From Gelatoporia subvermispora B (taxonomy: Eukaryota > Basidiomycota > Agaricomycetes > Polyporales > Gelatoporiaceae): 64,000 nt of DNA. Under the pieces are notes generated by a model, which searched no databases, had not been told where the DNA came from, and worked only from the letters and a program-made list of their open reading frames with translations. The DNA lies in contig KB445792.1 of NCBI GenBank assembly GCA_000320605.2, positions 2,237,581-2,301,580 on the forward strand, in the 5' to 3' direction. Shown in pieces: positions 6,139 to 30,861 of this stretch. Position numbers and translations under genes: made by a program. The stretch's first letter is position 1. Each line of letters starts with the position of its first letter.

Positions 6139-6290
6139 TATTGCAAAACGTCACGGGACCCGTATCATGGGCGCCAAACCCACATCCGTCGGCGTCCATG
6201 GTGTCGCCTCATCATCCACTACGATGTGCATCGACTTGACGTTCTCTTCCGTCTCCGCTCGCTGATAGATTTACTGCACGTCCGCCCTCG

Positions 6291-9752: not shown

Positions 9753-10857
9753 TTACACCGCTACGAATCGTTTGAAGAAATAGGTCTCGAGAGCCGCACG
9801 AACGCGGCGGAACTCGTATGCCGATAGCGCCATATCCTTGTTCAGAAATAGCTCGCGCTCTCCTACTGGGAGCTCGAGAAGTCCACAAAAATCATCCTCG
9901 CAACGAACACCTTTTGTCACGAAACGTGAATGCAATGCAGTCAAGTTCGGACTGAGGGTCCCGAGGAACTTCTCGAATTTGTCCACAGAAGTGGCTTCGC
10001 TGACGCTGTGAGTCTGAAGTGCGACTGTCGATGCAGGCTCCACGTGCTTGTTGGGCGCAGGAGGCGGGGTGATTGTGCTATGCTCTGTTTCTGTTTCAAC
10101 GGCATCGCCGAGGCCCCGCTTGGTCTACAGCGGTGCGAAGCACGTCAGCCGATGTGCCACCATGGTTGCGATCCCGGTCCCTTACCAACATATGCCTAGC
10201 CTTCGATGTTGTAGCTTTTGACGTGAAGTTTGCATGTGGAGTGTGTCCCCCTACGACTGTCTGCGTAGATCCAGGTGTGAGATTGACACTGTAATGTCAC
10301 AGTCGCGGGTCCTAGACGTACCTGAGCTGCATTCTGAGAAAGACCTTGACGAAATCCCGGAGACAGGCGTAGTCCTCGGTGATCGAGCTTAGGATGAGCA
10401 GTTGCATCCATGACTTCATTTTGTTTCCTCCAGCTGCCATGCTTCTTGGGCAACCAGTTTCGCCTTACATAGTATATGATTGGCCAGGTACTTGGTTCAT
10501 AATGCAGCTCGAAAAAATCGGTTCTTCTAAGAACCTGTGCCGCACCATTGAAACCAATAGCACATCGACCAGAACTGACTCACCCTCTTGAGATATCGCT
10601 CTATGATATCGTCGTTTACTAGTTGGGCCCAGGACTTTGAGCCGTCAATGAGTCCCCTCATGCAGACCCTAAGGAAGCTCTGCAACACAGTATGATCACG
10701 TACAATGTATGACAATCGAGCACCATGTACAAACCGTTAATTGAGCGAAAGTGTACTTATCAATCCTCATCGCCTCTTGAAGTGAACTTAGTTGACGCGG
10801 CTGGGGAATTTTTTTATCGGGACCCGCGTTCATTTGAGCGACTTGAGACGTGTGCAT
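9753..10857 (-). CDS. Paralogue A of an unrecognised two-domain gene family
   Basis: Member of the eight-gene family in this window; function unknown. Five exons join with all phases agreeing: 10857-10735, 10679-10584, 10534-10322, 10260-10186 and 10124-9753, giving about 292 residues. Exon 2 (32 codons) holds LRVCMRGLIDGSKSWAQL. Exon 3 holds the W-P-I-I-Y-Y variant of the family W-P-A motif followed by VRRNWLPKK. A Pro/Thr-rich linker precedes the C-terminal helical domain, which begins FLGTLSPNL and includes DDFCGLLELPVGERELF and YEFRRVRAALETY. The start could also be the ATG at 10833. The C-terminal domain is almost the same as in B, pointing to a recent duplication. Splice sites and the long open last exon suggest a working gene. 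Confidence 0.7.
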
Positions 10858-12754
10858 TTCCGTAGGCTCCACAAAGTACGGATACTCGAGACAGCACACA
10901 CAAATGCTTTGATGGTCCCTAAATAGTGTAGGAGGGCGTGAATGCGCCGTTTTCCCGGGATTGCCACGTATCACAAGGCCGACAGTGTCAGGCATTCCCC
11001 GGAGCATGATGCGTGAATTTCGAATGTATAGATAGATCGTAACTCCGAAAATCTCCCCGGATGCAGATGCAAAAGAAGAATCTAGACTAACCGCTACGCA
11101 TCAGGGTATGTCGCATCCGTCTATCGTTATCTATCATCCTCTATCATCCTCTATCATCCTCTATCACCCTCTATCACCCTCCATCGTCCTCTGCCGTCCT
11201 CTGTCGTCCTCTATCATTCATCGGTCGTCTCGGCCCCACCCATTCGTGCTATTCGGCGCCCGCAGGTCAGAGACCGAAGTTTCCCTGCACCAAGAGGAGG
11301 GTACGGTGCGCTATGTCGAGCCCTCCATCGCGGAAATACACTGTACGCCACTTTGCTCGTTACTGACTGGCATAGGTCTTTCACTCGTGCACACATTTGT
11401 CGCAAAAAATGGTAGATTATTTTGCAGCAATGCGAAAATGAGTCCCAGAAGCTCGCCAAGGCACAAACAGTCCATAGCTAGAAACAGACAGATCACTACC
11501 GCCGGGAGTTGTTAGGTTCACAAAGAAGTCGTTGTTAAATTACCCAGAAGCATAAGAGGCATTGTAGTCTCGTCCCAGTGAAGATGTTGCCCGGATCCTT
11601 CTTGACGCAGTCATCCTGAGGCCATCCGCTGGCGACCATGCATGCTACGAGATATCAATAAACCAACCAGTCTTGTCGCTATCATTTGCGCCTGCCACTA
11701 GTTCGGCCGAAGTTGACCTTCCGTACGGCTTCTTACGAGTCGAGCGAGCACTCGCTGCTACTCCGAAGACTTGTCTGTTCATGAATAAGACATGAGCTTC
11801 CTATCGCTAATGTGAGATAGGCGTACTTTGTAGTGTCTCGCGAGACCATCGGCTACTTTTTACGACGCTTACCAAGTATTCAGAGGATTACTCTCTATCG
11901 AAAATTTCTGTTATGCGCCCCGATTCACCTCCGACGGGCTATCTGGTTTGGGGGATCCATTGGGATGTCGTTCTCTTCCTAGGTATAACGTGTAATTCGG
12001 GTGCATTGCTTCCCGCGTCGCAGAAGCGTCCGTACTCCGCCCCTCAGAGGCAGAGTGGTTTCGAGCCTCACTCTGAGCATGAGGCTCCAACGCTCGTACA
12101 GCTGAAGACACGTTACCATGCACACATACTTCCCGTCCCTCCTTTTGCACTTATCGCTCCTCACGACTTTCATTTGTGCATTCGGATTTCTTTAATCTCC
12201 TTGCGGCGCTGCTACCACATCGATCCGCACTGCTCTCTTCTTAGCTTGAGTGACGTCTTCAGAATGTTCGAAGACGGTACTGAGTAGATCGTTCAAACAT
12301 GCAGCAAATAAAGCAGAGACTGTATGCAAATATAGCGATGGTGACGTTGGAAGTAGTGAGATGCGAGACGCACTTATCGTCGGTCGTTCCAGCTCCGCTT
12401 TTGAACGGGCATCGCGTCGCGGTCAGGTGACTCGCCTTGCATGACCTCTCGGAAGTCTCAACTTTTCTCTATGAGTGCCGTGAGATTTCCATGTGTTTTG
12501 AGAATGTATATCATTCGAACAATAGATATAATGAAAGAAGGTCATATGAAAATTCTTGAGAAATTCCATTAAAGCGGATGATGGACTCGATGAGTACATA
12601 AGATCTCGAGGGCTATGGTGAACCGCAATACAGACTATGAGTGCATTCTAGCAATTAATCGTCGGTGCTTGGGAGACGCACCACAGATATTCTCATTCTA
12701 CTCCCCCGGACTTCTGCATATTCAGCCGCACATGTGTACACCAACGACGACATT
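10858..12754. other. Intergenic between paralogues A and B
   Basis: Nearly 1.9 kb without a supported gene. It holds the 10-bp minisatellite at 11121-11215. Small open frames on both strands show no known domain and no copy of the A-H exons was found. Confidence 0.5.
11121..11215. repeat. 10-bp minisatellite
   Basis: About nine head-to-tail copies of CTATCATCCT. The first copies are almost exact and the later ones drift (CTATCACCCT, CTGCCGTCCT, CTGTCGTCCT). The same decamer core returns in the 27-bp repeat at 15054-15134. The plus-strand open frame through it is a by-product of the repeat. Confidence 0.9.
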
Positions 12755-13809
12755 CTATGTGGTCGAGAATCGATTCAAGAAATAGCTCTCAAGAGCCGTA
12801 CGGACACGGCGAAACTCATACAAAGACAGTGCCATGTCTTTGTTGAAGAAAAGCTCACGCTCCCCCACGGGGAGCTCAAGGAGCCCACAGAAGTCCTCTT
12901 CGTTACGGACTCCCGTCAGTACGAAGCGCGAATGTAGCGCGATCAAATTAGGGCTGAGTGTCCCGAGGAACTGCCGAAATTCGTCCAGCGAGAGAGGCTT
13001 GCTGGAGACGGGTGTTGATTTTGACGGGCAACGAGGTATCTGCGTACTAGGCAGAGGTGATAGGGAGACATCTTGACTTTCCGTCTTTAAGATCCGGTGA
13101 AAGCCTCGCCTAGTCTGTGAGATCTGCTGCGAAGTACTTCAGCCGAGATGTGATACGATATATAATGCTAGAGTACTATACCGTAGTCTTGAGTCTTGTC
13201 GGAGTTTTGTTGCGTACGTGCATAGTCGACTGCGACGATAGAGTGTTAGCATCCATGATAGTGATAATCGTTACAGGTATCGAGACATACGTTACGTCTA
13301 TGAGAAGGACCCGAGTGGATTATCGAAGATGAACGCGGTTTGCTCTCGGCGTAAGCCTGAGAGCAGGAAGACTGAGACTGCCGCCTCAGGACCAAGTTTC
13401 GGGTGGGCAACCAAGATTTCCTCAGATAGTGCAGAATCGGCCAGTCGCTAGGCGTGTACATATGCTCGAAGAAATTTGTTTGACTGTGTACCTGCAGAGC
13501 ACGATCGATAGAAGTATCACGCTTGCGAACAGGCTGCATACGTTGTCCAACAAACGCCCTATCATAACTGGATCTTGTTGACGCCAGGGCTTGGACTCAT
13601 CCACAAAGTTCGGAATACATTCCCTGAGAAAGCGCTGAGGGATCATACACTTCAGCGCCGTCTGCACAGACTCAACTTAGGACAGTACATACCGTCACTT
13701 TACTGAAGTTTTGACTGTCCAGCATCATAGCGGCCTTGAGGGACTTGTTCATAGTCTTTGGCTTGGCGATCTTGCCACCGTTGGCAGAAGTTGTTACAGA
13801 TGCAGACAT
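12755..13809 (-). CDS. Paralogue B of the two-domain family
   Basis: Closest relative of paralogue A; unknown function. Exon 1 (13809-13693) encodes MSASVTTSANGGKIAKP through NFSKVT. Exon 2 (13661-13542, 40 codons) is longer than the family norm and holds RFLRECIPNFVDESKPWRQQ. Exon 3, from 13491, has the SDWPILHYLRKSWLP block, again W-P-I rather than W-P-A. The linker splicing between about 13300 and 13090 is unresolved. The last exon gives SLDEFRQFLGTLSPNL and the helical domain EEDFCGLLELPVGERELFF with YEFRRVRTALESY, stop at 12755. In the 68-residue core I count 57 identities with A. The unresolved linker leaves open that B is partly decayed. Confidence 0.65.
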
Positions 13810-14280
13810 TTTCAAATAGGATAAGTCCGAGCTAAAGGTTCGACAGTATGATGGATGGTTGTATCTCCAATCGCACTTGAGAAGTGGGAGGCGGCCTTTT
13901 AAGTGTCGCACGTCCAGAGAGCTGGTGTCATCAATCGCTGAAATTGGGTACGGTTGGGCACTAATTCATTGGCATCGACAAAAGTATGTACGGAGCTGCA
14001 TTTTATGACGGAGATCGATTCGAAAAGTGCTAAACTTGGGTCGTGAAATGACCATGGCATTCGTGCGCGGCATGTGATAGCTCATTCGGCCCGCATATGA
14101 CAGCTTTGCTCGAATCGGAGAACTTGGAAGATGGATCCTCTGAATCAATTCAAGAACAAGTTCAGTACGTCTAGCTCTGCTAATGGAGTCATCTATTTCG
14201 TCAAAGCACATGGGTCAAATACCGTAATTTGGCAGCTCTAAGCAGAATACCAGATCCCAGGTGCCAATGTGAGAACACTG

Positions 14281-14334
14281 GCACCGATGCGAGAAGTGCT
14301 ACGTGGTATCACGTAGCACTTCTCGCACCGGTGC
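14281..14334. repeat. Long near-perfect hairpin
   Basis: Two 25-nt arms (14281-14305 and 14310-14334) pair around a GTAT loop with one mismatch. The inner 17 nt, GCGAGAAGTGCTACGTG and its complement, pair perfectly. It stands alone in a gene-free stretch. It could be the relic of a short inverted-repeat element or the source of a small RNA; the sequence alone cannot tell. Confidence 0.85.
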
Positions 14335-15053
14335 GAAGATTGCCACACCAGACTCCTGGGTATGTTGGTCCTCATCTTTAGGCGCGAAGTATCCAATGTG
14401 TATCATACATGAAGATGCTCTGACTACAAGCAGAATGTATCCACGCAAAAGGTCTTGTCACACGGTTTGGTCTATCACCGTTTGAGAAGGGGCACCACGG
14501 GTGGCTTCTGCGACACGAGTCGAAACTGAACGAGCATCCTCGTAACATGCCGCAGAATGCCCGTTCTATCATGTGCCGCGGCTGTGCTGCGGATCGAGAG
14601 CTCCTCGAGTGTCGGGCAACGGCGAGGTCTCACACGAATCTATGGATCTGGTATGCTTAGATGCTATTGAAGGTTAGTCATGTTTACTGTCAGGGGACAT
14701 ACCTATATGTAATGCCGCAAACACTATTCATTACGGCGTAGTCGTATTCGTGCTCGAAAGCGTATCACATACTGTACCATTGAGCACGAAAACGATTACT
14801 ATGCTGCGACCCGGCTTTTCTTGCTTTTATCCGTCGACGGGAATGTGAAGCAGTCAAACCGTCATGAGTCATAACGCATATCTAGCCATGATCTCGCCCA
14901 CACGGAGGACGGCGCACGAAAAAAGGGTGCTTACATGAAGCCGGTGTGAACAATAGAAGGAAAATCAGCCAAGATCACCGACTCAGCACACTACCTCATC
15001 ACCGCGTTTGCCTGATGCACGTGATCGTGTCGACGGACGGAGCACATTAGTTT

Positions 15054-15134
15054 CTGCATCCTCTATCATCCTGTCTGCTTCTGCATTCTCTATCATCCTG
15101 TCTGCTTCTGCATCCTCTATCATCCTGTCTGCTT
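15054..15134. repeat. 27-bp tandem repeat, three copies
   Basis: Three head-to-tail copies (15054-15080, 15081-15107, 15108-15134), with one C-to-T difference in the second. Each copy contains the CTATCATCCT core that forms the minisatellite at 11121-11215. Confidence 0.9.
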
Positions 15135-15619
15135 CTAGTTGTTCCAAGTCTCAGCCGCATGCTGTTCAGGCTAGTCCCTTCTGATTACACGGCATCAGAA
15201 TGCACATTTCCCTTGAATTCATCATTATGTGATCCCCGTCTAGAAACTGGCGGCGACTCACGCATTAATGCGAATTGGTTCAAACTGTTCTTCTCCTGAC
15301 CTAAGTTATCGACGATGAACCGTCGGTAACTCTCATTGTCGTGTCTCAATTGACATTTCACTGTTACAACCGAACACACGGCGATCTTTGGGTTCCGATA
15401 TTCCATTGCCCTGACGGGGGACCGAGGATTCACACGGCACTACCTAGAGAGATCATTCAGCCGACACGAGAAGGACACGATTCAAATATTGCGGGCACTG
15501 TTACAGGTCAAGGACTGCCATACATCGCAAGCTAGTTCTGAGGCCGAGTGAACGTGCTCATGAATGTCATAGGAATCCTAGGATATCTGAAGTGTACCAT
15601 TGAACATCATGAATGGCCT

Positions 15620-16679
15620 CTAGAGCATCTCTGTCGTGCTGTTCTTTTCTTCTAAGGCGTATCCAAGTAGCACGTTGACTTCCCTTGATTCGAACGGGTC
15701 TAGTTGCACATCCTCTTGGAGGAATGCCGAACGTTCGGACACTGGCCACTCTGCCATGCGTCTAATGTGCGCACACGTGGTGACACCAGCAACCTCGAGT
15801 TTCCTCTTGAGTTCATCTTGTAATGATTCCCAGACGGCGGAGACAGATATTTGTGCATGCCGACTCGGTGCAAAAGACTGAGGCCTCTCGACGCTGGCGC
15901 CAGACGCTGATGCGATGGAAGACCGAGTAATGGAGCGTCGCTTGGATTTCGCTTGGGAGATGGATAGAGGCGAGAATTGTGGCGTTTCTTGCTCGATATC
16001 TGAGGGCTACAACATCGTTCAGTTTCGTGTTTGCCTTAGACTACTGTACAACGACTTACCGAATTGCGAGTCTCATACGAGCCATTCTCTCCTAGCTGAC
16101 ACTTGACTTCAAGTTCTTCCTGATGCGCTGTGAACACATTTCCACGCGCAAGCCAGTGCCTGACGTACCGAGACAGAATCTCGCAGTAGCTCATCAACCT
16201 CGTCGTTCCGTTTCTGTCCATTGTTTGCCTTGCGGAGATGAGACCTGACGGACCCAATCCAGTTCTGTACATAGACTAGGGCTGGCCAACCATTCTCGTA
16301 GTTTTCGAGTAAGGGGTAACTCTTGATGGCCTGAAGAGAGATGAGTAATGAGCGATTAGATCGACGGAAGACGAACTGCGGCTCGAAAGTCCTCCATAAC
16401 AAATGGATCCTGGTCCCTAAAGCAGATCGAGACATCCAGCATTTCCTTCGCGAGCTTGCGCATATGTTTCTGTGTCCCTGTCAGTGGTCACACTGTCGGT
16501 GGTACACTGGTATATACCGTGAAGTGCTTGAACTGAGGATCCTTGTTTCTCAATTGCATTGACTTCTGCAACGATGCATGGGCAACCCGAGGACGGCGTA
16601 TAAGGTTGCGACCCATGATGGCTCTGTCTGAAGAGACGGGGACGCGAGCGCAATGTGGAGGCGGAGAATCAGGTGCCAT
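15620..16679 (-). CDS. Paralogue C of the two-domain family
   Basis: Unknown function; intact by reading. Exon 1 (16679-16518) starts MAPDSPPPHCARVPVSS and ends QFKHFT. Exon 2 (16469-16377, 31 codons) reads KHMRKLAKEMLDVSICFRDQ then DPFVMEDFRAA. Exon 3 (16330-16169) has SYPLLENYENGWPALVYVQN. A short exon with EELEVKCQLGENGSYETRNS and a Ser/Arg-rich exon follow. The C-terminal domain contains LKRKLEVAGVTTCAHIRRMA, EWPVSERSAFLQEDVQL and FESREVNVLL, ending in TAG at 15620-15622. All introns are phase 0 and 40-90 nt up to the last linker. An ATG at 16616 is an alternative start. Closest in pattern to paralogue E (both have the P-x-L-x-N-Y-E and I-G-S signatures in exon 3). Confidence 0.75.
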
Positions 16680-17283
16680 GTATGCGATGTGCTCCCATAA
16701 GACACATAGCATGAGGTACTTTCGGCAAACATAGTCAGAAGCCACATTCAGCCGTGCACCCCGGCAACGGTTGTCTGAGAAAGGGAAAACCATTTCATTC
16801 GCCGCTATTCGTCCCGTGTGACCTCGCTGGTCCAGGTCGGTGGCGTGTGCAAGCCTCGAGGCAGATCAGGGTGATGAGACCCGAGCACACTGAATTGCCT
16901 CTCGCCTGACACAACAATGTCAAAAATCACCAAGTTTACGAAGCCAACTTCCCGCCGCTCCGGGAAATCGGTGCACATTAACCCATCACCACATTCGGCG
17001 GTTAGGTCCATGCGTACCGTACCGCGACATTCTATTTCGATCGAATTCGAATTGTGATCACGTTTGTCGGCGAACACAAAGGGATTTACTGACATCTTGC
17101 TCGCAGCGTCTAGTTTCTCCACATGTTACTGCCTCTGTTTATTGACGTTAATACAAACAACCACTTCACTCGGTCTCAGCGTCACAATCTTCTGGAAGAT
17201 CGACTATGGTCCCTGCTCGAGGATCCGAATGAGTACTATGTACGCATTGAGGATGGAAGGAGGATGGACTAAATTGCCATTTG
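16680..17283. other. Gap between C and D with a 105-codon open frame
   Basis: The minus-strand frame 16805-17122 starts with ATG (MEKLDAASKMSVNPFVFADK) and has balanced residue use, including VGFVNLVIFDIVVSGERQF. No domain or homologue is recognised and no splice context supports it. It may be a small gene or chance. Confidence 0.25.
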
Positions 17284-18192
17284 TCATAAGACAGCACATT
17301 TTTTGCGGGTTTCCTGGCTCCCTAACGCGCTATTGACCATTCGGGATTCGAGCATCGTGAGCTCCACATCGCACTGAAGAAACCGAATTCGCTCATCCTC
17401 CGGCCACTTCTTCAAACTCAAGAGACAGTCGAGATCTTGTATTCCGGCGGCGGTGAATCTCGGAAGAAGATCGGACAATGTCACCGATGACAAGAACGTT
17501 GCCATGTTCTCAGAATCGCTAGATGATGCAACAGATGGCGAGGGGACGAGTGTCGCCCCGGAAGATGGCATGATGCTACCATGCAACCTTACAACACGTT
17601 CTTCACGAAATGCAGCGCCCTGCAACAAGAGCGTCAGTGTATGTGTCAGTGGTGTGAGGGATCAATGCTCACATGTCTACCAACTTGGGATAATCCATCA
17701 TCGCCCCGCTTCCTTTCAGGGCTCCGCGCACCATACGAGTACTCAATCTGCGTTGTTCTGCGTTCTTCAGCCACAATGCGTTGACGGCGATGCTCGTGAT
17801 TGGCGGCCCATAGATATTGTCTCGCATATAGCGTCGCCGGCCACGCTCGGTCGTATCGACGCAATAATGGAAACATCTCGAGAGCCTCAGAGATGTATAA
17901 TCAGATTACTCGAGTCACCAAGTCAGGGGCAGCAGGGAACTCACAGCAAGTCTGAATTGCTCCACTTTGGCTGGGTCCTGGTCTGCGAAAGGGACTATCG
18001 TGTCTAGTATCTCCTTAATTAGTTTTCGAAGCTGCGCCTACGTCCATTGTCAAAATGCGGCTGTAAAACTATCATACTCTACTGGCAGCGCACCTTAAAC
18101 TGGCGGTTTCCCGCAAGCACGGGCAACACCTGTGCCAATCTGTGTTGTCGAGAAGAATATGGCTCCGGAATGATTTTGGTCCTAGCTTGCAT
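17284..18192 (-). CDS. Paralogue D of the two-domain family
   Basis: Unknown function. Exon 1 (18192-18094) encodes MQARTKIIPEPYSSRQHRLA to NRQFK. Exon 2, using the acceptor that gives 31 codons, reads AQLRKLIKEILDTIVPFADQ then DPAKVEQFRLA. Exon 3 has MFPLLRRYDRAWPATLYARQ followed by YLWAANHEHRR. The last exon carries a Ser-rich stretch and the C-terminal domain with FLSSVTLSDLLPRFTAAGIQ, KWPEDERIRFLQCDVEL and LESRMVNSAL, stop at 17284. It pairs with paralogue F across the kinase gene: both share the QYLW...NH...RR ending of exon 3 and WPED in the last domain. The first two exons are too short to stand out as open frames; family alignment finds them. Confidence 0.72.
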
Positions 18193-19637
18193 GGGTGTTC
18201 TGAGTTTGACTCTCAAAACCGCCCAACGTACCCTTTTCACTAACAGCCGGTACCGCGGGACTGCTTAGGAGATTTCATGACGCAACCCCACTAGAACGAG
18301 GTATAGCACACGTTCTTGCCACGGCGAAACCGTCCCATTGCCAGGAATTTCGCAATGGCATCATTGGGAAGATGCGATGTTTGATTTGACCTTTCAACGC
18401 CGGACACGTTCCGACACCAATGAGTGTGACTGACATTTCATGCATTAGCGAACCTCGCCGTGTCCTCGCGTCCATACCACTTTGAACGCGACCCGACGGG
18501 GAAATATCATTATTACGGCACCATGGCCGCATCAGAATTCTGCGTTCCAGAGGAGATGCACGGTTGAGAAACAGAAGACAATAAGTCAGACACGGTGAGG
18601 TTCTCTGGTCATCAGTAGACAGGTTCTGGCTAGACGGGTCGAGCGGGGGCCCAGTTTGAACGTTTGAACTTCGCCGTGTCGCTTACGCCTGTGCCACACG
18701 TGATCGCGTTCCCGATGTGGCGCAGAGATCGGCCATTCCTTCGTCAAGCAAAATTATGGGTCGAGGACTCGACGGCAACCTGAATCAATGTCGGTGTGGG
18801 GCACGTACTTGCGATGTTGCACGCAGAACACACAATCTCCCCAAATGAGCAGATCTAGACGACCACGTATGCGTCGCATCGCACATATCACCAGTCTTTG
18901 GAGAGAACGAATTCGAAGAGCAGTCGAAATCCGTGTTGTGTCCTTTGCAAGGTGTCATCACATACTTTATCCACTCACGGCAACACGTCACCGCTCCCTT
19001 GCTCACCCATCCCTGACAAACCGAATCTGAGAAAAGGGCGAATGCTGATAATACACACAAACAAGACGAAAACATGCGACGCATGTGGGCGCGCAAATAT
19101 AAAACAGTTACGTAGGTTTACAGGCATGCAGACAACATTTGGCATCGCGAGACCCGACACAGGTGGGAAGTGATTGAGGCAGTGCGACGGCCCAGCCCAA
19201 TGTCCTCGACCAGGATCCCAAGTGGGGGCAAGGCAAAGAATGCGGCAGGCCGAATGCGTGAATGGTCCGGCGTGCGCGAATACAATCTTGGATACGCAAG
19301 CATGAATGCCCCCCCACAACGTGAACAGCGGGGCGTATATTCGTGCGCATGTGGAAGGCCGGTACTGGTGTGGACGTGGGCATAGGCGGATGCCGATGCG
19401 GACAAGGATGGGAATGAGGAGGGACGGGGGAATGGGCGGAGGTTATCAATGGTGTGTGACACGAGACACGAAGGGGAAAACTGCAGGCGGACAGAGACAG
19501 CGCGACGGGCTACAGGCAACAAATAGAGGAGTCGAGGGACAATGGACGAGGGGCGGCGGAGTGGTGCGAGATGTGTAGAGTGCGTGCGAGGGACTCAATA
19601 AGATAGGATCCTGGTCTAGGGACGGCTCGCGTCCGGG
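18193..19637. other. Intergenic, no gene recognised
   Basis: About 1.4 kb between paralogue D and the kinase 3' end. Several overlapping open frames on both strands at 18785-19580 reflect biased base composition and show no domain. Part is likely the 3' untranslated region of the kinase. Confidence 0.5.
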
Positions 19638-22154
19638 CTAGTCCACCCTCATCGGGCTCATCGGCACCTCCATCTCCTGGTGCGCGGGCCCGTCCGCCAG
19701 CGGGCTGCCCACAGCCGTGCCGACGACACCGCCATCAACCCCGCGGCGATGTCTTCTCCCAAGCAACGTCGCACCATCCAGGTCGAGCTCAAAAGGCACA
19801 TTGCCCTTCCGCCTTCCCCGATCACGCTGGCCCGCCCGCCCATCGTACCCTGCAGGATCCCGCACCGCACGCTTCGCAGTGGCTTTCGCACCCGCACCGA
19901 CAGGTGCATTCTGCGCTTGCTGCTGCATCTGCACCTGGTCCTGCTTCCTCCGCGCCTCCCGGAGCTTCGCATGGTCGACTTCATCCTCCGCGTCCTCCAT
20001 ATCTTCGTCACTCTCGTTGAGGCCCTGCAAGAACCCACGATTCGCTCCGCCACGTGCAGCACGCCGACGCGCGCCCTCTTCTTCCATGCGGTGAACGGCA
20101 TAGGTGACATCGAATGCCTCCTTGAGCGAAGCGAGGCCCGGCGAGCGGATGCCGTGGGGCCCGGCGAGAAGTGGCGAGTCGAGCGCTCGTGTTGGTGTCG
20201 GGAGCGCTGGCACTGGCGGTGCAGGTGCAGCAGTGCACCACGGATGTGCGAGGAACTCGTCAATCGTGAATCGTTGTGCGGGATCAACGCAGAGTAGGTG
20301 CGTAATCAGGTCCTTTGCTGATATGAAATCCCGTAAGTGGTTTTATACTTCATTTGAGTCGAGAGATACCCACCAGTAGCGCTTATCGAGTCCCACCACG
20401 GACTCAGGAACGTGTAATATCCGCGAGCAACCTTCTCGGTGAGAACGTTTATGCTTTCGTCGTAGAATGGAGGGAAGCCGCACAGGAGTGTGTATAACAC
20501 ACATCCTAGTGCCCACATGTCCACGCTCTTGCTATAGCGCTCATCCTTGACGATCTCGGGAGCAGTGTATCCGACGGTACCGCAGGGCGTTTGTGTATGC
20601 TCGTCCCAAACAACCTTGCTAAGCCCGAAGTCGGCGATCTTGACGCGGCCGATCCCTCCTCCACCGACGCCTGGGATGAACTCGCCCTCGTCCTCCTTGT
20701 CCTCTTCGAACATTTTCGTAGGCGCGTTCTTGCTCGGGATAATCGGAATGCGCTCAAAGAGGAGGTTTTCGGGCTTTATATCACGGTGGACAACGCCCCG
20801 CTCTTCGTGCAGATATCTGATACCCTCCGCGACCTGCATAATGACATGGCGCGCGAGATTCTCGCTAAAATATGTCAATTTCACGATCTGATGAAATAGC
20901 TCGCCGCCTTCTAGGACTGTAACGGATACGGGCATCAGCGAATGCGTACTCAACTACAGATCGGCAGGGCGTACGTTCTAGGACAAGGAAATAGTGCTCT
21001 GGGGATTCCGAGAACGAGTAAAGCTCCACGATTGACGGGTGGTTGATACCGCGCATAATCTGCACCTCTGATAACAGGGTCAGATGTCAGCGATTGGCAT
21101 ACGAGGGTGGATCTGCTCACCTTTGAGGATGTTCGCACGCTAAGGATAGGCAGGACCATGTCAGCTAGGCTTGACATGAAGTAGTAAAGGCAGTAGCACC
21201 TCCGTCACACGCGGTTTTTTCTTAAACTCGCGGTTCAGGTGCTTGTCACCGGCCTGGGGACGCGGCGCAGAAAAAGAGCGAAACATGGATGATGAATAGT
21301 GGGAAAGAATGGGGAGAAACTGATACTAACCTGTGAGGCACTGAGCTCGTACTTGCGCACGACCTTGACTAAAGCGCGGAGCGATGCGATCAGCGTTGGG
21401 CCGGGCGCAATTAAGGCAACTACAGCGCGGCGGCGTACCTGCGACCTTCTGGCCTGTGGACAGATCGATGGCCTTGTAGACGTTGGAGAAGGCACCACTG
21501 ATGGACAGCGGAGTCAGTGCCCTGTTCGAGCGTGGGCTGACATATTGCGCATGCAGCGCGCTCGAAGGTGGCGCGAGTCATGATGACGCGCGATGGCGAC
21601 CGACACCAGAACATGGAACCCTTGGGATAGCAAGGGAGCCGTGTTCTGGATGGATCGCCGGATCGGAGGGGAGGAAGGGATTTTGTGTATTGCATTCCGA
21701 GAAGGCCGGAGCCGTAGCGGCTGGCAGCCCGGCGGGGGCAATGAGTAATATGAAACGGCCACTCACTCGCCCATCTTGTCGATAAGTTTGTAATCTTCGA
21801 GGCCCACGTAGGTGGGCATCTTGCCCTTGGCCTCGCGCTCCTCCTGCACGATTTGCTCGAGGTGCTCCTTGTACTTGGAGGAGGACTGGCTGGTAGATTG
21901 GGGGCTAGCCTGCTTCTGTGTTTGTTGCTGTTGCTGCGGAGGTGTTTCACGCTGCTGCCGCGTGTGCTGCTGCTGCTGCAGTGCCGGAACATGCGGCTGC
22001 TTCGCAGACTGCTCGTCTTGTCTGACGGTGTGGTGGTTCTTCCCATGTCGGATGAGATCTGTGAACCGGAAGGTGGTGAGTGCGAGAACTGAGGGGAGAA
22101 GGGGAAAGTATACGAACTCTTGAACGCGTCGACGACGCCTGAACCCGACGGCAT
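19638..22154 (-). CDS. SRK1: Srk1/Rck2-type MAPK-activated protein kinase
   Basis: Serine/threonine kinase of the CaMK group, like fission yeast Srk1 and budding yeast Rck2, which are activated by the Sty1/Hog1 stress MAPK and restrain translation or cell-cycle entry. The N-terminus MPSGSGVVDAFKS is followed by a Gln-rich low-complexity segment. The kinase domain has the glycine loop GDGAFSNVYKA, the VKVV lysine, GGELFHQIVKLTYFSENLAR, HRDIKPENLL, IADFGLSKVVWD and YTAPEIVKDERYSKSVDMWA. The family-typical insert EDEGEFIPGVGGGGIGRVK lies between HRD and DFG. The long C-tail is rich in Arg, Gln and Gly. One intron near 21502-21775 is about 270 nt, long for this window. It sits between the minus-strand and plus-strand halves of the A-H array. 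Signalling role is from the family, not shown here. Confidence 0.92.
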
Positions 22155-24036
22155 GATAGTCGAACGTAGGGGTGGTATCGGAGGTATGTTATGGAACGGA
22201 AGGAGGGGATAGTCGTGGTAGCAAAGACAGACCAGCCGCGCAAAAAAGGACGAGGCAATGGCAGAGGAGCGCCGCTGGGCGCCGCTAACCCATGCTTGCC
22301 TTTGGCCGGTCACACACATAACGTCATCAGCCTCATACGTCACCTGCCTTTTTTGGCAACTACCAGACGCCCACTCCGGACCTGCCCAGCTCCCGTGTCA
22401 CGTTCACAGCTCTCTCTTATATTACTCTGTAATTATCAGCCACTCCCTGTTGAGTTTTGCCCAAAATCACAGAAGAATATGGTGCGCTACCTAGTGGGCC
22501 GTCGCTCAGACGACAAGTTTGGCCGGACACTAGCTGGTACGGTTGCCAATATTATTGGCGGGACAGGGTGCGCCCGGCCCCAGGGTCGCGGTCGTCGTCA
22601 TACTCCGACCTTTCTCGCCCCGCCATCAATTATCAGTCTGTGGAGTGTCTCTTTCAACGCTGCAGATATGACTCCTTCTGCGGGCCAGTCCTGCCTTGCT
22701 CGGGCCTCGGCATCCTCGTCATACTGTGTGGGTCCAGCCCCCCACGATCGACCGTCATCCCGCAATACTTCTCCAGTTCTCTAGCGCGGAACCTGGCGCG
22801 TCGGAGCTGCACCCACGAGCGGCGTGCGTATATCCTCCGTTGCGGGGCTGATCACGATAGCACAGTACCGAACAACGCATCAATTCTCATCGTACAATCA
22901 TCGAGATCGTTGCTCCAGTCTACGGACTGCATGCACCCACACGATCCTCTCGCTAAAGTCACCAGTGTGTGTTACTGGATGACTTCCCGTAAGGAATCTA
23001 GGGCCAGTTTTCCTAGATTTTGTGTCCCAGATGGCCTAAGCGAACGGCCGAGCGTGACATTTTCAAACTCCGACGGGCATCCTAAATGCTCCCAGACGAC
23101 GAAGTTGGGTCGAGGGGGGTACCCCCTCTCCCAGAGCTTTCCAAAGTTCGCTTACGGCCGCTTATGTCGCTTGAGGTGCACAAACATATCTCCGTCTCCT
23201 ACGACGACCGACGCCTGCCGTTTATGGCCATTCGTCGAGCTTGATGATGTCATCGCTGGGTGCACTCAACTTCGCGATGCTGCTCCTTGCAATCTACATT
23301 GCAGAATTGCAAGGGGCCCGAGAGTAATTGCGTGTCATCATCGGAGAAGTGTCATCATCTGAGAAGGACATCTTTCCTCCATAGGGAGAGCACATCAGAA
23401 CACGCGTAGACAGGACAGAGGTGTCGCAGATTTAGGGAAACTGGCCCTAGACATAGCCGTTTGGGACGCTGCACGTGCTTACGGTTTGGAGCCAGTTTCG
23501 GCAAGGGGCGCCGGTCACACTTTTTGCGAGTCCGCAATCTAGGGAAACTGGCCCTAAATTCTTACGGGAAGTCATCCACTGACTTTCGAACATCTGCATC
23601 TCCGAGTATGGCGGTGTCGCCAGGCGCCACTCGGTCGATCATCCCGGCGCTTGGAACGAGCCGCCCTTCCAAATACGGCACTAAGCCTTCAGGCTTTCCA
23701 AGTTTCTTTCGTGTATTATTGTATATCCTCCACTCCGCTTCAGCACTCCTAGAGCTGGTTTACAAACCTAGAAAATCGCATCATGTATACCTGCATGGCG
23801 CATGTCCGGATCAAGCGGTAACGCGGCCTTTTCAACCCGAGAACCCGCCCAAGCTCCCACGCCGCATCAGCCGAATGCTGCTAATCCTCTAAGTTGCTCT
23901 GTAGGTGTTCGTGTAGCGTGTTCCATGCTAGAACGACAATCTGATCACGCCGCTTACGACATCAGTTTATGGGTACATATGAGGCGGATCGTAGCTGCAT
24001 GGTATAATTCGGCTGCATCACTGTCGGCCGTCACCA
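22155..24036. other. Intergenic with inverted-repeat element
   Basis: Upstream region of the kinase and of paralogue E. It holds the putative element at 22976-23578. The 301-codon plus-strand frame at 22457-23362 overlaps that element, is rich in Cys, Arg and Ser, and has no domain, so it is not called a gene. Confidence 0.5.
22976..23578. mobile_element. Putative non-autonomous terminal-inverted-repeat element
   Basis: The ends 22976-23019 and 23536-23578 are inverted copies of one another over about 43 nt with few mismatches. The outer part reads TGGATGACTTCCCGTAAG and the inner part includes GGGCCAGTTT and CCTAGATT. A third copy of the inner part lies at 23429-23451 in the orientation of the right end. 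No transposase frame is present, so it would be MITE-like. No clear target-site duplication is visible, which leaves a simple inverted duplication possible. Confidence 0.5.
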
Positions 24037-25259
24037 ATGTGTTCACGTCTCATACCATGCCCTCCGGCCTCCAAGGACAGGTCCCTGCGCAGAATGATGG
24101 ATCTTGATCAGACACACTTCCGCATCTTTACGGTACGTTGCCACTCAAGACGTAGTAGGTCCTGGACTACACGTGCTAACGCCATTCTAGGGTGAGATGC
24201 GCAGGCTGATATACGAGGTGCTGAAACTGGACAAAAGGATGTGGCAACAGAATCCGAAAGCTGTCGATGAGTACAGGCGCAGGGTATGTGGACCAGCAAC
24301 ATGACCCTGTTGCGCGCGCCTGACTGGACTGTGTAAGGCAATCGAGGCATGGCCAGATCTAACCAACTATGAGAAGGCCTGGCCGGCTATCCAATACGCA
24401 AAGACCCACATTGGGTCGATGTTAAAGCCCTCCGCTCGGGACAGCGGTGCTACGCCGGAGGCCCACAAGTGGAAAATTTTGGCAGCTCATCAGCGAGCGC
24501 TCAAACTTGAGGTTTGCAATCATCCACATGAGACGCGCGCCCATTCTCATTAACGACAGGGCTGCATCGTTCAGGACGAGGACAAGGGCGAAGAATGGAG
24601 CGGACTATCCAATACAGTAAGTGTGAAGCACTAATTCTGCGTTCGCCACAGCTCACGTCGAGCAGGTCTACAGTGACCCGCCGCCGCCGCCCCAGCCCCC
24701 CGTGCAAAAGAACATCTCAGCCCTGCCCTCGCAGCCCTCACAAGGAGCCTTGTCAGTCTCTCCGAAGTGGTCGCCTTCCTCTGCCTCGACCTTCACCCTT
24801 GTCTCCCCGCCATCTCCTCCTCGTGCTCCCAGGCTGCCCTTACCCCGCCGTCGCCCGCCTCCTCTACCCCGCAACCTCCACAAACCCCCTTTCACACAGT
24901 CTTTCTCCCGCGAGCCCTCCGTCCTCCCGCCTGACACCGACACTTGCACCTCCACCTTTGCCTACGCCTGCACAGACCCCGGCCCCGACACCACCATTAC
25001 CACTACTGCCGCCGGCGCTCACACCATACTTGACATCAAACCGAAAACATCTTTACAAGCCTTCCTCGCCTCACTCTCCCCGCCGTTGCACCACCTGCAC
25101 GCGAAGCTCGCCGCTGCGGGCCTCGCGACGCGCGAGGACCTTGCGAGCATGGCCGACTGGAGCGAGCGCGAGCGCTGCGCATTCCTGCGCGAGAGCGTGG
25201 AGCTCAGCGCGTTTGATGCTATCCGAGTGAATAGGGTGTTAGCCAATCTCGGCGCGTGA
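24037..25259 (+). CDS. Paralogue E of the two-domain family
   Basis: First of the four plus-strand members; unknown function. Exon 1 (24037-24132) encodes MCSRLIPCPPASKDRSLRRM to THFRIFT. Exon 2 begins at 24191 and has 31 codons, GEMRRLIYEVLKLDKRMWQQ then NPKAVDEYRRR. Exon 3 gives AWPDLTNYEKAWPAIQYAKT and HIGSML. The last exon has a long Pro/Ser-rich linker of about 110 residues, then the C-terminal domain with LQAFLASLSPPLHHLHAKLA, WSERERCAFLRESVEL and FDAIRVNRVLANL, ending TGA at 25257-25259. It has the longest linker of the family and unusually high GC in that part. The closest exon-3 match is paralogue C. Confidence 0.75.
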
Positions 25260-26376
25260 GGTAAGGGGCACAGGACGGCGCAAGCTGATACGCCGCGTGG
25301 GTCACGGCAGAGGCGTGTTGTGCCAAGGTCCTGGACCGTTTCCCGTATATTCAATACCGCGCTATCGAATTGCCCATTTTGAAAAATTGTGCAATACGTA
25401 TTCCATTGTGTAAAATCCCCCTGTCGAGTTTCGGAGTGAATGATGCTCACTGGGAAAGGGAGTGCCGGGGACCTCCCCGATGTGACATGACGCCAATCCA
25501 GGTCTAGCCGTCCCCGTCGATTCATTATGCACAACTTCATCAGAATATACGTGCGCAGCCTCGCCTCGCACGGCCGTGCGCCCACAAACTCCGCTTGTGC
25601 CGCGCTAGCGCGCCCCCCTCGACACGATCACGTGTCCGGGGTTCGACGCGAGCGGCGAAGTGGGCGACGGCGAACAGCGGCGAACTCGCTCACGCTTCCT
25701 CTTGTGCGTCAGCCCGCTGGCCGCTGACGGCGTCGACGAGGTACCCGAACACGCGTTTTCCGCAACTTGTGTTCTGGGGACATGGTCGAGTGTTAGTGGA
25801 ATGTGCTCGCTTACTCTGTCTCTCGGTGACGAGTTTCTGCCGCATGGTCCGACGCGTCAAGTTGGCATCCTAGGGTATCCTAACCTTTTGGAGTGTCTTG
25901 CCGGAGATTTGTGTTCTGGTGCTCCTCGCATTTCTGATATTCTTTCGGGGAAAACGGACAGTTGATGCTTCGGGTAAACGCTTCGGTGGTCACCGTGTAT
26001 GGACAACGTATCGCCGCTTCGCTATCGGCGAGCACGAGCGGACAGTGCCGTAGGGAAGATGCATACGAGACATGGGACCTGAGTCTACCATATCTCTCGT
26101 GTGCGTCTCGGTACCGACAGCGAGGTCAGTCTTGACATAGCCTCCGCATCAGGAAAACGTTGCATTTACATTGGCGCCACTTTTCTTGCTTTGGGCTATC
26201 AAAGCGGGAAAAGCGGAAAAATACAAGTCCAGGGTGACTGAGATTTTCCGACTTTTGCCACTTTCAGGGTGCTTATCGCCCGGGAAAAGACGTAAAAGTG
26301 GCCAAAGTGAAAGTGAGATTTTGCTGATGCGGTATCTGAACACGCCATCCAACGCCTCGAGAAAGAGAAAGAGGAT
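25260..26376. other. Intergenic between paralogues E and F
   Basis: About 1.1 kb with no supported gene. A weak imperfect inverted repeat based on AAAGTGGC/GCCACTTT lies around 26249-26310. Open frames near 25527-25965 show no domain. Confidence 0.5.
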
Positions 26377-27408
26377 ATGGGTTTGATACCACAGCCGCAT
26401 CGTGCTCTTACAACCCTCAAAGACACCGCGAGGCTTCGTGATGAGGAGTCAATCGGAATAAGAGTCAGTTCTCTGAGTAGTTTTGGTTTTGCCAATTTTT
26501 ACCTCAAGGTACTGCTCATTCTCCCAGAAACACCTACGCAAACTCATACAGGATATACTCGACCCTACGATCTGCCTCAAGTTGCAGGACAAAGCTAAAG
26601 TACAGCGATACCGCTGCCTCGTAAGTTGTCTGAAAGACCTGATCGGATCTACTCATAACCCTCACAACGCTCAGGCGTTGAAGACGTGCCCGCCCTTACG
26701 AAAGTACGAGCACGGCTGGCCGGCAATGGCCTACGCGAAACAATACTTGTGGAAAGTCAACCACGATATCCGGCGAGGGCAGGGCCGTCAAAAAGGGTGG
26801 TGCAGGAATACAAAAGACGTCGGGATGAGGGTGGGTGAGCACCTGGCAGGCGAACCTACTCTTTCGGTGAAGCACAGACACGAAAGCAAGGGGGGTACAG
26901 TGATGCAGGCTCGTCTTAGAAACCAGCGCTGCTCGAAAGGACGAGCACGGCCAACAACCGTTGTGCGATCCACTCCTTCGAGTTGGCACTCCAAGGCTGG
27001 CCTTCTCGCTACGGTCAGTCTCTTTAAATATTCCGTGGTCGCGCACTGATCACTGCCTCATAACAGGATTCAAACAATGTCGATCCCTCAGCTCTCGAAG
27101 AACGTCACACAGTCGAACTGCCACTGCCTTCGAATTGCTCCTCGATAACGCTCCGCGAAACCGAGGGTCAGGAATCACTCTCTTCCTTCCTCGCAGCAAC
27201 GAAGTTGTCACACATGCGCCCGAATCTTGTCACGGCAGGAGTCGATAGCTTGGCCTTGTTTCTGATCATGTTGGATTGGCCGGAGGACAGGCGCATGTCG
27301 TTCCTGCGCGTCAAGCTGGGTTTGACGATGCTCCAGTGCCGTGTGGTAAACGGAACATTGGGAAGTCTGGGTATTTGCGCTCCATGCACGTCTGGTGGTA
27401 GTTTGTAA
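26377..27408 (+). CDS. Paralogue F of the two-domain family
   Basis: Unknown function. Exon 1 (26377-26463) encodes MGLIPQPHRALTTLKDTARL to SIGIR, using the GTCAGT donor. Exon 2 has 31 codons, KHLRKLIQDILDPTICLKLQ then DKAKVQRYRCL. Exon 3 reads CPPLRKYEHGWPAMAYAKQY then LWKVNHDIRR. After a linker whose small exons are not fixed, the last exon from about 27068 carries the C-terminal domain with LATKLSHMRPNLVTAGV-like residues, DWPEDRRMSFLRVKLGL and CRVVNGTLGSL, stop at 27408. It is the counterpart of D. An alternative first splice would leave an intron of only 19 nt, which is why the GTCAGT donor was chosen. Confidence 0.7.
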
Positions 27409-27883
27409 GTTTGACGTCTGTCCGCCCACGTTCAGAACCATGCGTGGTGCCTTAACGTTATTTGGATGATACAATTTTGCCGCGCGGGAGCACCACTTTC
27501 GGCAATCTTCGAACCGAACCCATCCGGTCCGTGTTAACGCCAACGGAATATGTTATAATAAAGGTTGAGTGCTAGGATCTTTTGCGGTCGATTGAATAAT
27601 GACAAATGTGAACGGCCATGACTACGGCGTTTCGAAGCTCATCACGTCAGGAAGAGACAATGTAGATGTATCCTTCGCCCCAGAAGAGATTGTGGCGGGC
27701 TCATCCGGACTCAAAGACATTTGCGAATTCACCAAAAATTACGTTCAGAATGGATCAACGTGGCTGTATCATCACATGAGGTTTTGCCGTATTCACCCCG
27801 CTACAATCACGTCCCGACCAAGATCGACCGTGGGGTCGCTCTCAAATACTCGAATGCGATTTTCTAGAGTGTGAAAGATCGGG
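27409..27883. other. Short intergenic gap F-G
   Basis: A 91-codon plus-strand frame (27599-27874) has no recognisable content. Probably the 3' flank of F and the promoter of G. Confidence 0.5.
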
Positions 27884-29006
27884 ATGTACCTCTCACCGGA
27901 AAGCAAGATTCGCCTTATTCCTCGACCATCGGTCTGTAGCAAGCAGGCCTTCTCGCAGCTCATGGACCTTCCTGAGAGGTGTCATCGAATTGTCCATATG
28001 CAGGTGAGGGTGCTGTACTATACATGTTCACACCGCCTTGTTACTCACCGAATCTTAGACTCACCTGCGGCAGCTCATAAGGAAGATGCTAGATATGAAT
28101 ATCCCATATGCGTTGCAAGATCCCGACGAGGTTGAAGAATATCGATTTGCAGTACGCTTCCTCTGTTGCATGTCATCTGACTTCCTATCATCCTCGCTCT
28201 ATCAGGCCCTAGAGACTTATCCTTTCCTGAAGAAATTCGAGGATGGTTGGCCCGCAATAGTCTATCTGCAGCGGCACTTAGTCAACTTTCAGAAGCTGCC
28301 GGAACAACGCCTTGCTCGTGGCCAGGCTCCTAGAAGGCGCCAAAGTCTTCCTGTAAAGCTGCGGGGCGTGGCAAAACGCTGCCGCATATCCCCAGAGTCC
28401 GATTCACTTGCAAGAGACGAACGGGCCGACACTGATGACTGTTCTGACGCGGAGGAGAGCTTCTCGCTGGGGGTAGATTCGGTGAGGCCTCAGATAACGA
28501 CGGTATATGAGATACTGATAGTGAACAGGAGAACACAATGATTGTGCATCCAAATCTGCTCAAGCAAATGAATAAACAAGATTGTCATCTTGTGAGATCC
28601 TTTGACATTCAACGTCGACTTTACTGATATATTAGCTCAGAATCCGAAACACGTCGGAGTTCGGTCAGAAACCCTAGACACGCCTATGGCGATGGGCATA
28701 CACTGCGAGTCCTCGTCGGATGGATTCGAGTCGTCTACTGAGGTGGAGGAGGCCTTGCAGTTACGTGCATCTCCCCAGATCGACACAACCAGCACCAGGC
28801 GAACGACATTCTTGGAGCGCCTAGCTTTGGACATGCCTGACCTCTATGCTAAGCTCTCTGCAGCTGGGTTAGACAACCTGGAGTACTTGGATGGTTTGGC
28901 GCGGTGGACGGCAGGGGACCGTGAGATGTTCTACCGGGAAGAGATGGATCTTAGCCTTGAGGAGTGTAATCGCCTGAATGTAGCACTGAGAGAGATGTTG
29001 GCTTGA
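27884..29006 (+). CDS. Paralogue G of the two-domain family
   Basis: Unknown function. Exon 1 starts MYLSPESKIRLIPRPSVCSK and ends HRIVHMQ. Exon 2 has 31 codons, THLRQLIRKMLDMNIPYALQ then DPDEVEEYRFA. Exon 3 reads TYPFLKKFEDGWPAIVYLQR and continues into a basic, then acidic Ser-rich linker. The last exon gives the C-terminal domain TTFLERLALDMPDLYAKLSA, WTAGDREMFYREEMDLSL and ECNRLNVALREML, stop at 29006. The linker between about 28480 and 28640 has one intron whose ends are not certain. The order of motifs and intron phases is the same as in the other members. Confidence 0.72.
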
Positions 29007-29770
29007 GATACGAGACCGATGCAGACTGAATCGTTTCTGTACTGTGACAATCTCGATCCTCTTGTGGTGCCTCCGTTTCCTCTTCATTGGAGCTAGACAG
29101 CCACCGAACTTTCCGAAAGAATTTCTGTTGTACTGCAAACCGAGGATTCCACCGCTTGGAGCTTTGATTGACTGGACAAGCAATATCGGATAGTAGGCAC
29201 TGCACGACTAAAACAGTGACACATACTACGAGATGCGAGACGACTAGACTCGCTTCAGTGACATTAGAGGATGCCTTAGAGGACCTCGGGTCCTCAGCCA
29301 CATGTCGCGGGCGAGTTCCAGAAGATGCATTGTGCCTTCTGATCAGCGGGTAAGATAAAGCCAGAACATTCGCAACATACCATGGGTCGCCGTGCTTGGC
29401 TCAGGGTAGAACTGTACTCGGGGAACTGTGTGTGGATGAGGCTGGGACTTGCCGTGGCACCACTACCGAGATCGAGCATGAGTCGGCGCCAAGATCAAGT
29501 GAACCCGCTTGCTAGCCTCAGCGCCCCGTTGTGTAGCCCTTCCCCTCGTTCATGTTGTCGTACACGACGCAATGCTGTCACAACGTATTAATACCTCATT
29601 GTTCGTCATGGGGCCTGTGTATGGCCCCGTGGTTTGGTATTACCGCTCACAGAACTTCGGCTGTGCAAGTTGAACACCTTCAACTGGCTATAAGAGACGT
29701 TAAACTTCTGACGTGTACCTTGAGCGAAGGGCATTGATCGGAACGGTCTCAAACTTTCCTCAATATCGCA
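29007..29770. other. Intergenic between paralogues G and H
   Basis: About 760 bp without a supported gene or family exon. Short open frames only. Confidence 0.5.
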
Positions 29771-30861
29771 ATGAAGCCTTCAGAGGAAGGTGCATCTGGC
29801 TCTCATGAGAGCCAACCCGATCTTGTACCCGAACCAAGAACCGCAAATGGCTCCCTCCGCCGCAGCATGAATGTCGACGAAGCCACGTTTAAGGACGTCT
29901 GTGTAAGTGGATCAGCATCGGAAAATCGTATGTAACACCATGCTACGACTGATGATCCGTAGACCATTCTGAGAAACTGCGCGAGTACATATCTCGACGA
30001 CTCCAAACCGTTCCGTGCACAGGAACAAGCTCGAGTCGAGACTTATCGTCAGGAGGTGAGTTTTCTCGTGTATGTAGACTAAGAATAGTCGGTGACCACA
30101 GTGCGTAGGCTGCGAAGCGGTGTACGGTGCTCAGTGGATACCGCAACGCATGGCCAGCTATACACTATGTTCGTCGCAACTTCCCGAGACGTCTGAATCG
30201 AGCCTCGCACCAGAAAAACGCCAAAGATCGCTCTCGTGCGACGTCCCCAGAAGTGCGCGTAAGTAGAACCATGTCGTCACTGGCGTCGATCATAGCTCAG
30301 ATCTTTCCCATAGTCTGCGCCTTCGGTCCCCGTCAAACGTGAATCAAAGGCCAAGGCAGTCGTCTCGGCCATTCAGACCAGAAGTCAAAGGGTGAGACTG
30401 AAGTTATTTCCCGAGGTAGTAAGCTTAGAAATGTAACATAGAGGCACCAAGAGGCGTCTACATCAACAGCTGCAAGCACAGGAGACATCGTCGGCGTGGC
30501 CGCTACATCGAAAGATCAGTCAACTCAAGCAGTCATCACCCCGGACAACAGCATCTCCACGCAAGGTTCATCAAATTGCTTGAGCGGGCTAGTACTGCCT
30601 CCCCGCGCGACATGGGGCCAAAAATTGGCAACGTTGTCTTTTGAACTCTTCCTTGACTCCCTGAACCCGAGCATTCGGGATCTGCATGGAGCGCTTATTA
30701 AGAGCGGTGTCAATAACGCCGCGCAGTTCTGTATGTTGATGGACCTCCCCAGCAGCGAACGAGAGCTCCTGCTCAAACACGGCATAGGCATCAGTCTGTA
30801 CGATTATCATCGCGTACGGTCGGCGTTAGAAGCGCTTAGTATGAGGCTCTTGGGTTCCTAA
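29771..30861 (+). CDS. Paralogue H of the two-domain family
   Basis: Unknown function. Exon 1 starts MKPSEEGASGSHESQPDLVP and ends EATFKDVC. Exon 2 has 31 codons, TILRNCASTYLDDSKPFRAQ then EQARVETYRQE, and shares the D-x-S-K-P-F/W-R-x-Q motif with B. Exon 3 gives LSGYRNAWPAIHYVRRNFPR. A Ser/Thr-rich linker is followed by the C-terminal domain with LDSLNPSIRDLHGALIKSGV, LMDLPSSERELLLKHGI and YDYHRVRSALEAL, stop at 30861. By pattern it is nearest to A and B (L-P-x2-E-R-E-L and R-V-R-x-A-L-E), although it lies at the other end of the array. Confidence 0.72.

Follow-up and report, generated by a model that had tools for sequence, protein, structure and literature searches.

A 64,000-nucleotide stretch of contig C2 (positions 2237581-2301580; hereafter the window) of the white-rot fungus Gelatoporia subvermispora B, whose assembly comprises 37.7 Mb in 52 contigs, carries an array of eight related genes, A to H, arranged to the left and right of a protein-kinase gene. 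Genes A-D lie to its left, on the minus strand, and E-H to its right, on the plus strand; the array runs from 9753, the final base of the A stop codon, to 30861, the final base of the H stop codon. A reading made earlier from the DNA alone (hereafter the original prediction) had placed a local two-domain gene family here, flanking the kinase gene on both sides, and this has been borne out. The eight genes lie where they had been put, each model splices end to end, and all eight read from ATG to stop with zero internal stops.

In the left arm, gene A (284 aa, span 9753..10833) is made up of five exons (10833-10735, 10679-10584, 10534-10322, 10260-10186 and 10124-9753) separated by four phase 0 introns. 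Gene B (272 aa, span 12755..13809) also has five (13809-13693, 13634-13542, 13491-13291, 13229-13182 and 13114-12755), as does gene C (266 aa, span 15620..16616; 16616-16518, 16469-16377, 16330-16169, 16119-16060 and 16006-15620), and gene D (246 aa, span 17284..18192) has four (18192-18094, 18037-17945, 17885-17673 and 17619-17284). The right-arm genes all have five exons: E (337 aa, span 24037..25259; 24037-24132, 24191-24283, 24338-24511, 24560-24616 and 24666-25259), F (260 aa, span 26377..27408; 26377-26463, 26528-26620, 26675-26830, 26909-27013 and 27067-27408), G (305 aa, span 27884..29006; 27884-28003, 28059-28151, 28206-28481, 28529-28591 and 28641-29006) and H (290 aa, span 29771..30861; 29771-29902, 29963-30055, 30109-30258, 30314-30391 and 30442-30861). 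Gene G, as given here, is the public model CERSUDRAFT_91779.

The exon-intron plan of these genes is strikingly uniform. The models built here contain 30 introns (four each in A, B, C, E, F and H; three each in D and G), all of them GT-AG and phase 0. CERSUDRAFT_91779, an independent model, matches the G model at every boundary common to both and divides its 159-nt third intron around a 63-nt exon, again in phase 0; when it is used for G, the total rises to 31 introns, which measure 46-78 nt and are without exception GT-AG and phase 0. Splice sites in the remaining models were picked by eye so that conserved frames hold, and the uniform phase is therefore partly the modeller's choice. The first two introns lie in phase 0 in all eight models, as had been proposed, and the predicted exon 2 length of 31 codons (93 nt) is seen in C, D, E, F, G and H and also in B, while A has 32 codons (96 nt). 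The original list of exons fared less evenly: its other ordered parts were recovered in most copies, but it had overlooked a fourth exon, only 48-105 nt long, that is present in seven of the eight genes (in G by the public model) and is missing from the D model.

Do these genes share common descent? Profiles trained with the gene in question held out were run against the 1703 open reading frames (ORFs) of at least 25 aa in the window, with the 1769 ORFs of the reversed window as control; A and B were both excluded from training whenever either was held out, and the limits of the domains were chosen by eye. All eight last exons were recovered, with E-values of 1.2e-17 (A), 4.6e-18 (B), 2.4e-12 (C), 7e-18 (D), 1.7e-18 (E), 3.5e-14 (F), 2.8e-12 (G) and 4.2e-15 (H) against a top control match of 0.27, and this exon by itself therefore carries the family membership of all eight genes. 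Exon 3 was recovered in six of eight (E 5.1e-7 to 3.7e-12), those of A (0.16) and B (0.21) not passing the control (0.33 in those runs; 0.072 across the eight runs). Exon 2 was likewise recovered in six (E 7.8e-4 or better); that of gene E is weak (E 0.26) and that of gene A was missed (E 70, rank 73). The common ordered motifs proposed for all eight copies thus hold throughout for the last exon, but those of exons 2 and 3 are weak in A and B. Genes A-H are a real local family sharing common descent and two conserved parts.

The last exon had been described as a block of motifs without any named fold, and this description can now be replaced. AlphaFold2, given an eight-row alignment, predicts the last exon of gene B with good confidence scores (pLDDT 89.0, pTM 0.76) as five helices at residues 5-14, 20-28, 34-42, 45-55 and 60-78; the domain occupies 12755..12997 on the minus strand (the last 81 codons plus stop). 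The predicted structure has the five-helix bundle with a long C-terminal helix that marks the sterile alpha motif (SAM) superfamily. Among solved structures, SAM domains make up most of its nearest neighbours, the matches being below statistical significance, and they fill 10 of the 14 top rows in the structure search with the better model. Sequence profiles gave no SAM match above the cut-off: SAM_EPH was matched in only one of eight copies (E 0.055 with the block, 0.038 with the full protein), and Pfam held no SAM profile matching the consensus sequences, NCBIfam not being searched. The last exon is thus predicted to encode a SAM-like five-helix domain. A different small helical fold of the DNA-binding BAF or RAD51 N-terminal (helix-hairpin-helix) type is an improbable alternative, as the two best rows exceed BAF by more than 1 Z and the domain is mostly net negative, with a negative total over its first 66 residues in eight of ten copies (F +3, J 0; copies I and J are described below).

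Upstream of this domain, the first three exons encode what is predicted to be a basic helical block. In gene G, for example, the block spans 27884..28283 on the plus strand (exons 1 and 2 with the beginning of exon 3; approximately residues 20-97) and has four predicted helices, with pLDDT block means of 87-96 over residues 31-80. Structure comparison of this N-terminal block gave no clear match to solved folds. The middle linker that follows is predicted to be disordered and is mostly basic at its start. A sub-threshold resemblance to the Dcp2 box A domain was seen for the exon 2 region of copy J (residues 411-444 of the public model CERSUDRAFT_122492; E 0.049, 14.3 bits against a cut-off of 28).

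The family extends beyond the window array. Searched against its own genome, the last-exon consensus gave 11 matches at E<=10: the eight window copies, two on contig C4 and one at chance level that contains a stop (E 3.3). The C4 copies, I and J (C4:864468 and C4:866509; E 1.8e-5 and 1.6e-8), have an exon 2 of 31 codons as well as the W-P exon 3. Queries with exon 2, exon 3 and J returned six, three and six matches in the same genome, all from the array or the C4 pair; ten copies are nonetheless a lower bound, because these searches score best candidates only. The public model at the C4 locus, CERSUDRAFT_122492 (L022 6436-9650), fuses I and J, retains the first intron of J and omits its last exon and thereby its C-terminal domain. 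It places the boundaries of copy I exons 2 and 3 exactly where they were derived here, and gives phase 1 to the last intron of copy I and to an extra first intron, so that the all-phase-0 rule, valid for A-H, has exceptions in the C4 pair.

Relatives beyond this fungus were sought among 5.8 billion proteins by searches requiring shared five-residue words, and only CERSUDRAFT_91779 and CERSUDRAFT_122492, both from the same fungus, were returned. In one of these searches the 7990 candidates sharing most words were scored and gene G occupied the first row; absence of A-F and H among these candidates does not prove that they are unannotated. A consensus with an X linker found nothing at E<=10 among the 484 candidates scored. 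Since shared words are needed and the family is highly divergent even within one genome, relatives elsewhere could be missed, and no claim is made that the family is restricted to G. subvermispora. A similar end motif presumably occurs in proteins of other mushrooms. Pfam scans of the blocks, full proteins, CERSUDRAFT_122492 and consensus sequences gave nothing better than E 0.035, and the eight full proteins matched only PP_M1, SAM_EPH and FMN_dh, in one member each (E 0.036-0.073). The Pfam profile searches thus place the copies in no family, in keeping with the original view that the architecture has no name. Open-licence literature yielded nothing on the CERSUDRAFT models or on tandem clusters of SAM-domain genes in basidiomycetes, and the family does not appear to be treated in that literature on sterile alpha motifs in Agaricomycetes.

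How old are these copies? Trees of all ten, in which several end branches are long, join A with B (100/99), its closest paralog, and I with J as mutual nearest copies. Two groups reach across the kinase gene: H groups with A and B (97/95 and 97/96 in two trees), and F with D, its nearest paralog (95/96 and 94/97, the second just below the mark of the tool). The placement of C, E and G is not settled, the approximately unbiased (AU) test giving p 0.385 for C+G, 0.38 for C+E, 0.336 for E+G and 0.096 for D+E. The left arm ABCD as one clade was rejected (AU p 0.0003), as was the right arm EFGH (AU p 0.0002), so the arms did not arise as two tandem expansions independent of each other. A recent inverted duplication around the kinase gene was also rejected; no repeats of at least 24 nt linking the two arms were found, and even the closest pair, A and B, has saturated silent sites. 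The present layout stems either from duplication of an old block in inverted orientation or from transfer of members from one arm to the other. A mirrored gene order of the arms is suggested, though not shown, by just two resolved cross pairs.

The original prediction had called these genes fast-evolving, and here the A-B comparison points the other way. The proportion of silent differences (pS) is approximately 0.8 in all three parts of the proteins (0.80 in the last 75 residues), and with silent sites saturated no pN/pS ratio is given. The proportion of amino acid-changing differences (pN) is lowest in the last 75 residues (0.136), higher over the first 100 (0.393) and highest in the stretch between them (0.524), an order that suggests constraint on the C-terminal domain and a free linker. 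Saturated silent sites together with so low a pN in the C-terminal domain indicate that the two genes parted long ago and have since been constrained; members of an array can differ strongly without evolving fast. Selection may still act at single sites, as the comparison is of one pair from one strain.

These data bear on the suggestion of a self/non-self recognition locus, whose copies would diversify by selection for differences between strains. Local clustering, strong divergence and the variable linker would suit such a role, and a SAM family has been reported at the N-terminus of fungal NLR-type recognition proteins (PMC9815663). However, A and B are old and constrained, their C-terminal domain having changed little, and the Pfam scan of the eight full proteins detected no recognition-type domain, be it homeodomain, HET, NACHT or similar. 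Recognition is therefore an unlikely role for the family.

What, then, could these proteins do? A protein whose ends are connected by a disordered linker and whose C-terminus is a small interaction fold has the plan of an adaptor, and SAM domains typically self-associate or pair. Our favoured reading, held tentatively, is that the family comprises at least ten old paralogs encoding SAM-like, oligomerising two-domain adaptors that most likely act as nuclear regulators of transcription or chromatin. The basic helical block would bind a partner, protein or nucleic acid; the linker would connect it to the SAM-like domain; and the latter would pair the proteins with themselves or one another. That ten copies have diverged and yet been retained suggests selective pairing among them. 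Homo- and hetero-oligomers of differing composition could result, and such assemblies would most likely be nuclear and regulate transcription or chromatin.

The SAM domain of Vts1/Smaug binds RNA, and the family could instead consist of RNA-binding regulators of this kind, assisted by the basic block and linker. The basic N-terminal block and linker start are consistent with this, as is the weak resemblance of copy J to Dcp2 box A, but the net negative charge of most SAM-like domains makes such a function rather doubtful.

The kinase gene offers a further candidate role. Its identified frame (20309..20953, minus strand; Pkinase E 4.8e-40) lies between the arms and covers most of the kinase domain, the whole gene being longer. 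The best solved relatives are CaMK1/CaMKIV, followed by MAPKAPK2/3, and by these the kinase is assigned to the CaMK group; it may be a stress kinase of the Rck2/Srk1-like type. Other features of the window include a short-chain dehydrogenase frame to the left of the array (Pfam scan), a 565-aa open frame at 6240-7937 with an F-box/leucine-rich-repeat look by eye, an aspartyl protease frame to the right (31387-31794; Asp, E 6.7e-23) and a second aspartyl protease-looking frame, again by eye, at 58705-59403. Two inter-gene gaps of the array hold short tandem repeats that have a CTCTATCATCCT core in common (11130-11180 and 15052-15136; periods of 10 and 27 nt). Upstream of gene B, an inverted repeat at 14268-14347 has two 38-nt arms, 82% complementary and 4 nt apart, and could be a small mobile element remnant or a hairpin.

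In yeast, the SAM domain of the adaptor Ste50 binds that of the kinase Ste11, and A-H might by comparison be adaptors in the stress pathway of the neighbouring kinase. This idea draws on neighbourhood only, and no functional link between the kinase and the array was found. The C4 copies show no protein-kinase neighbour among seven flanking open frames (L022 and L023), one of which matched Pfam, as thymidylate kinase; the Ste50 SAM structure (1z1v) forms a weak row in the structure comparison, and the Ras-association domain that accompanies SAM in Ste50-type proteins was absent from the Pfam matches of all eight complete proteins at E<=10. A stress-pathway role is accordingly improbable. As for A-H being decayed or chance open frames, just one of them, gene G, turned up as a public protein model (no single search was made with the other seven), but frames intact through 30-31 GT-AG introns, held-out profile matches far beyond the reversed-window control and the constraint between A and B make this scarcely credible.

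With nuclear adaptors as the preferred role, a fuller picture can be drawn, more speculative again and, in all its parts together, rather unlikely. It would describe a fungal family, hitherto undescribed, that combines a new N-terminal helical fold with a SAM-like oligomerisation domain; its at least ten old, constrained paralogs, partly in two facing arms that pair across a kinase gene, would act as a combinatorial set building different nuclear assemblies. What is new here is an unnamed gene family whose last exon is predicted to be SAM-like. This sequenced wood-decay fungus, which serves lignin research, thus has no fewer than ten genes in one nameless family. Just two public models turned up for the ten copies, and the one at the C4 locus fuses two genes and loses the second C-terminal domain. 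The SAM-like end offers a first testable function, namely which copies pair with which, and the importance of the family depends on its breadth of occurrence in other mushrooms.

Among known systems, SAMD5, p73, SLy1 and Polyhomeotic/Scm share with A-H a five-helix bundle (here predicted) of approximately 65-75 residues with a long last helix, present once, at one terminus of a protein that also has disordered stretches. Unlike these SAM proteins, the A-H family has no above-threshold sequence match, its structural match is below significance, and its SAM-like end is joined to a helical block without a clear solved fold. The fungal Ste50 adaptor is alike in being fungal and in combining a SAM domain, a disordered linker and an adaptor role (PMC9503583). 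LEAFY differs in being a plant transcription factor with an N-terminal SAM domain and a known DNA-binding domain, and no homology to it is claimed. Its SAM oligomerisation domain steers a nuclear regulator without itself touching DNA (PMC4844672), and LEAFY thereby provides a model for how a SAM domain could shape a nuclear regulator by oligomerisation.

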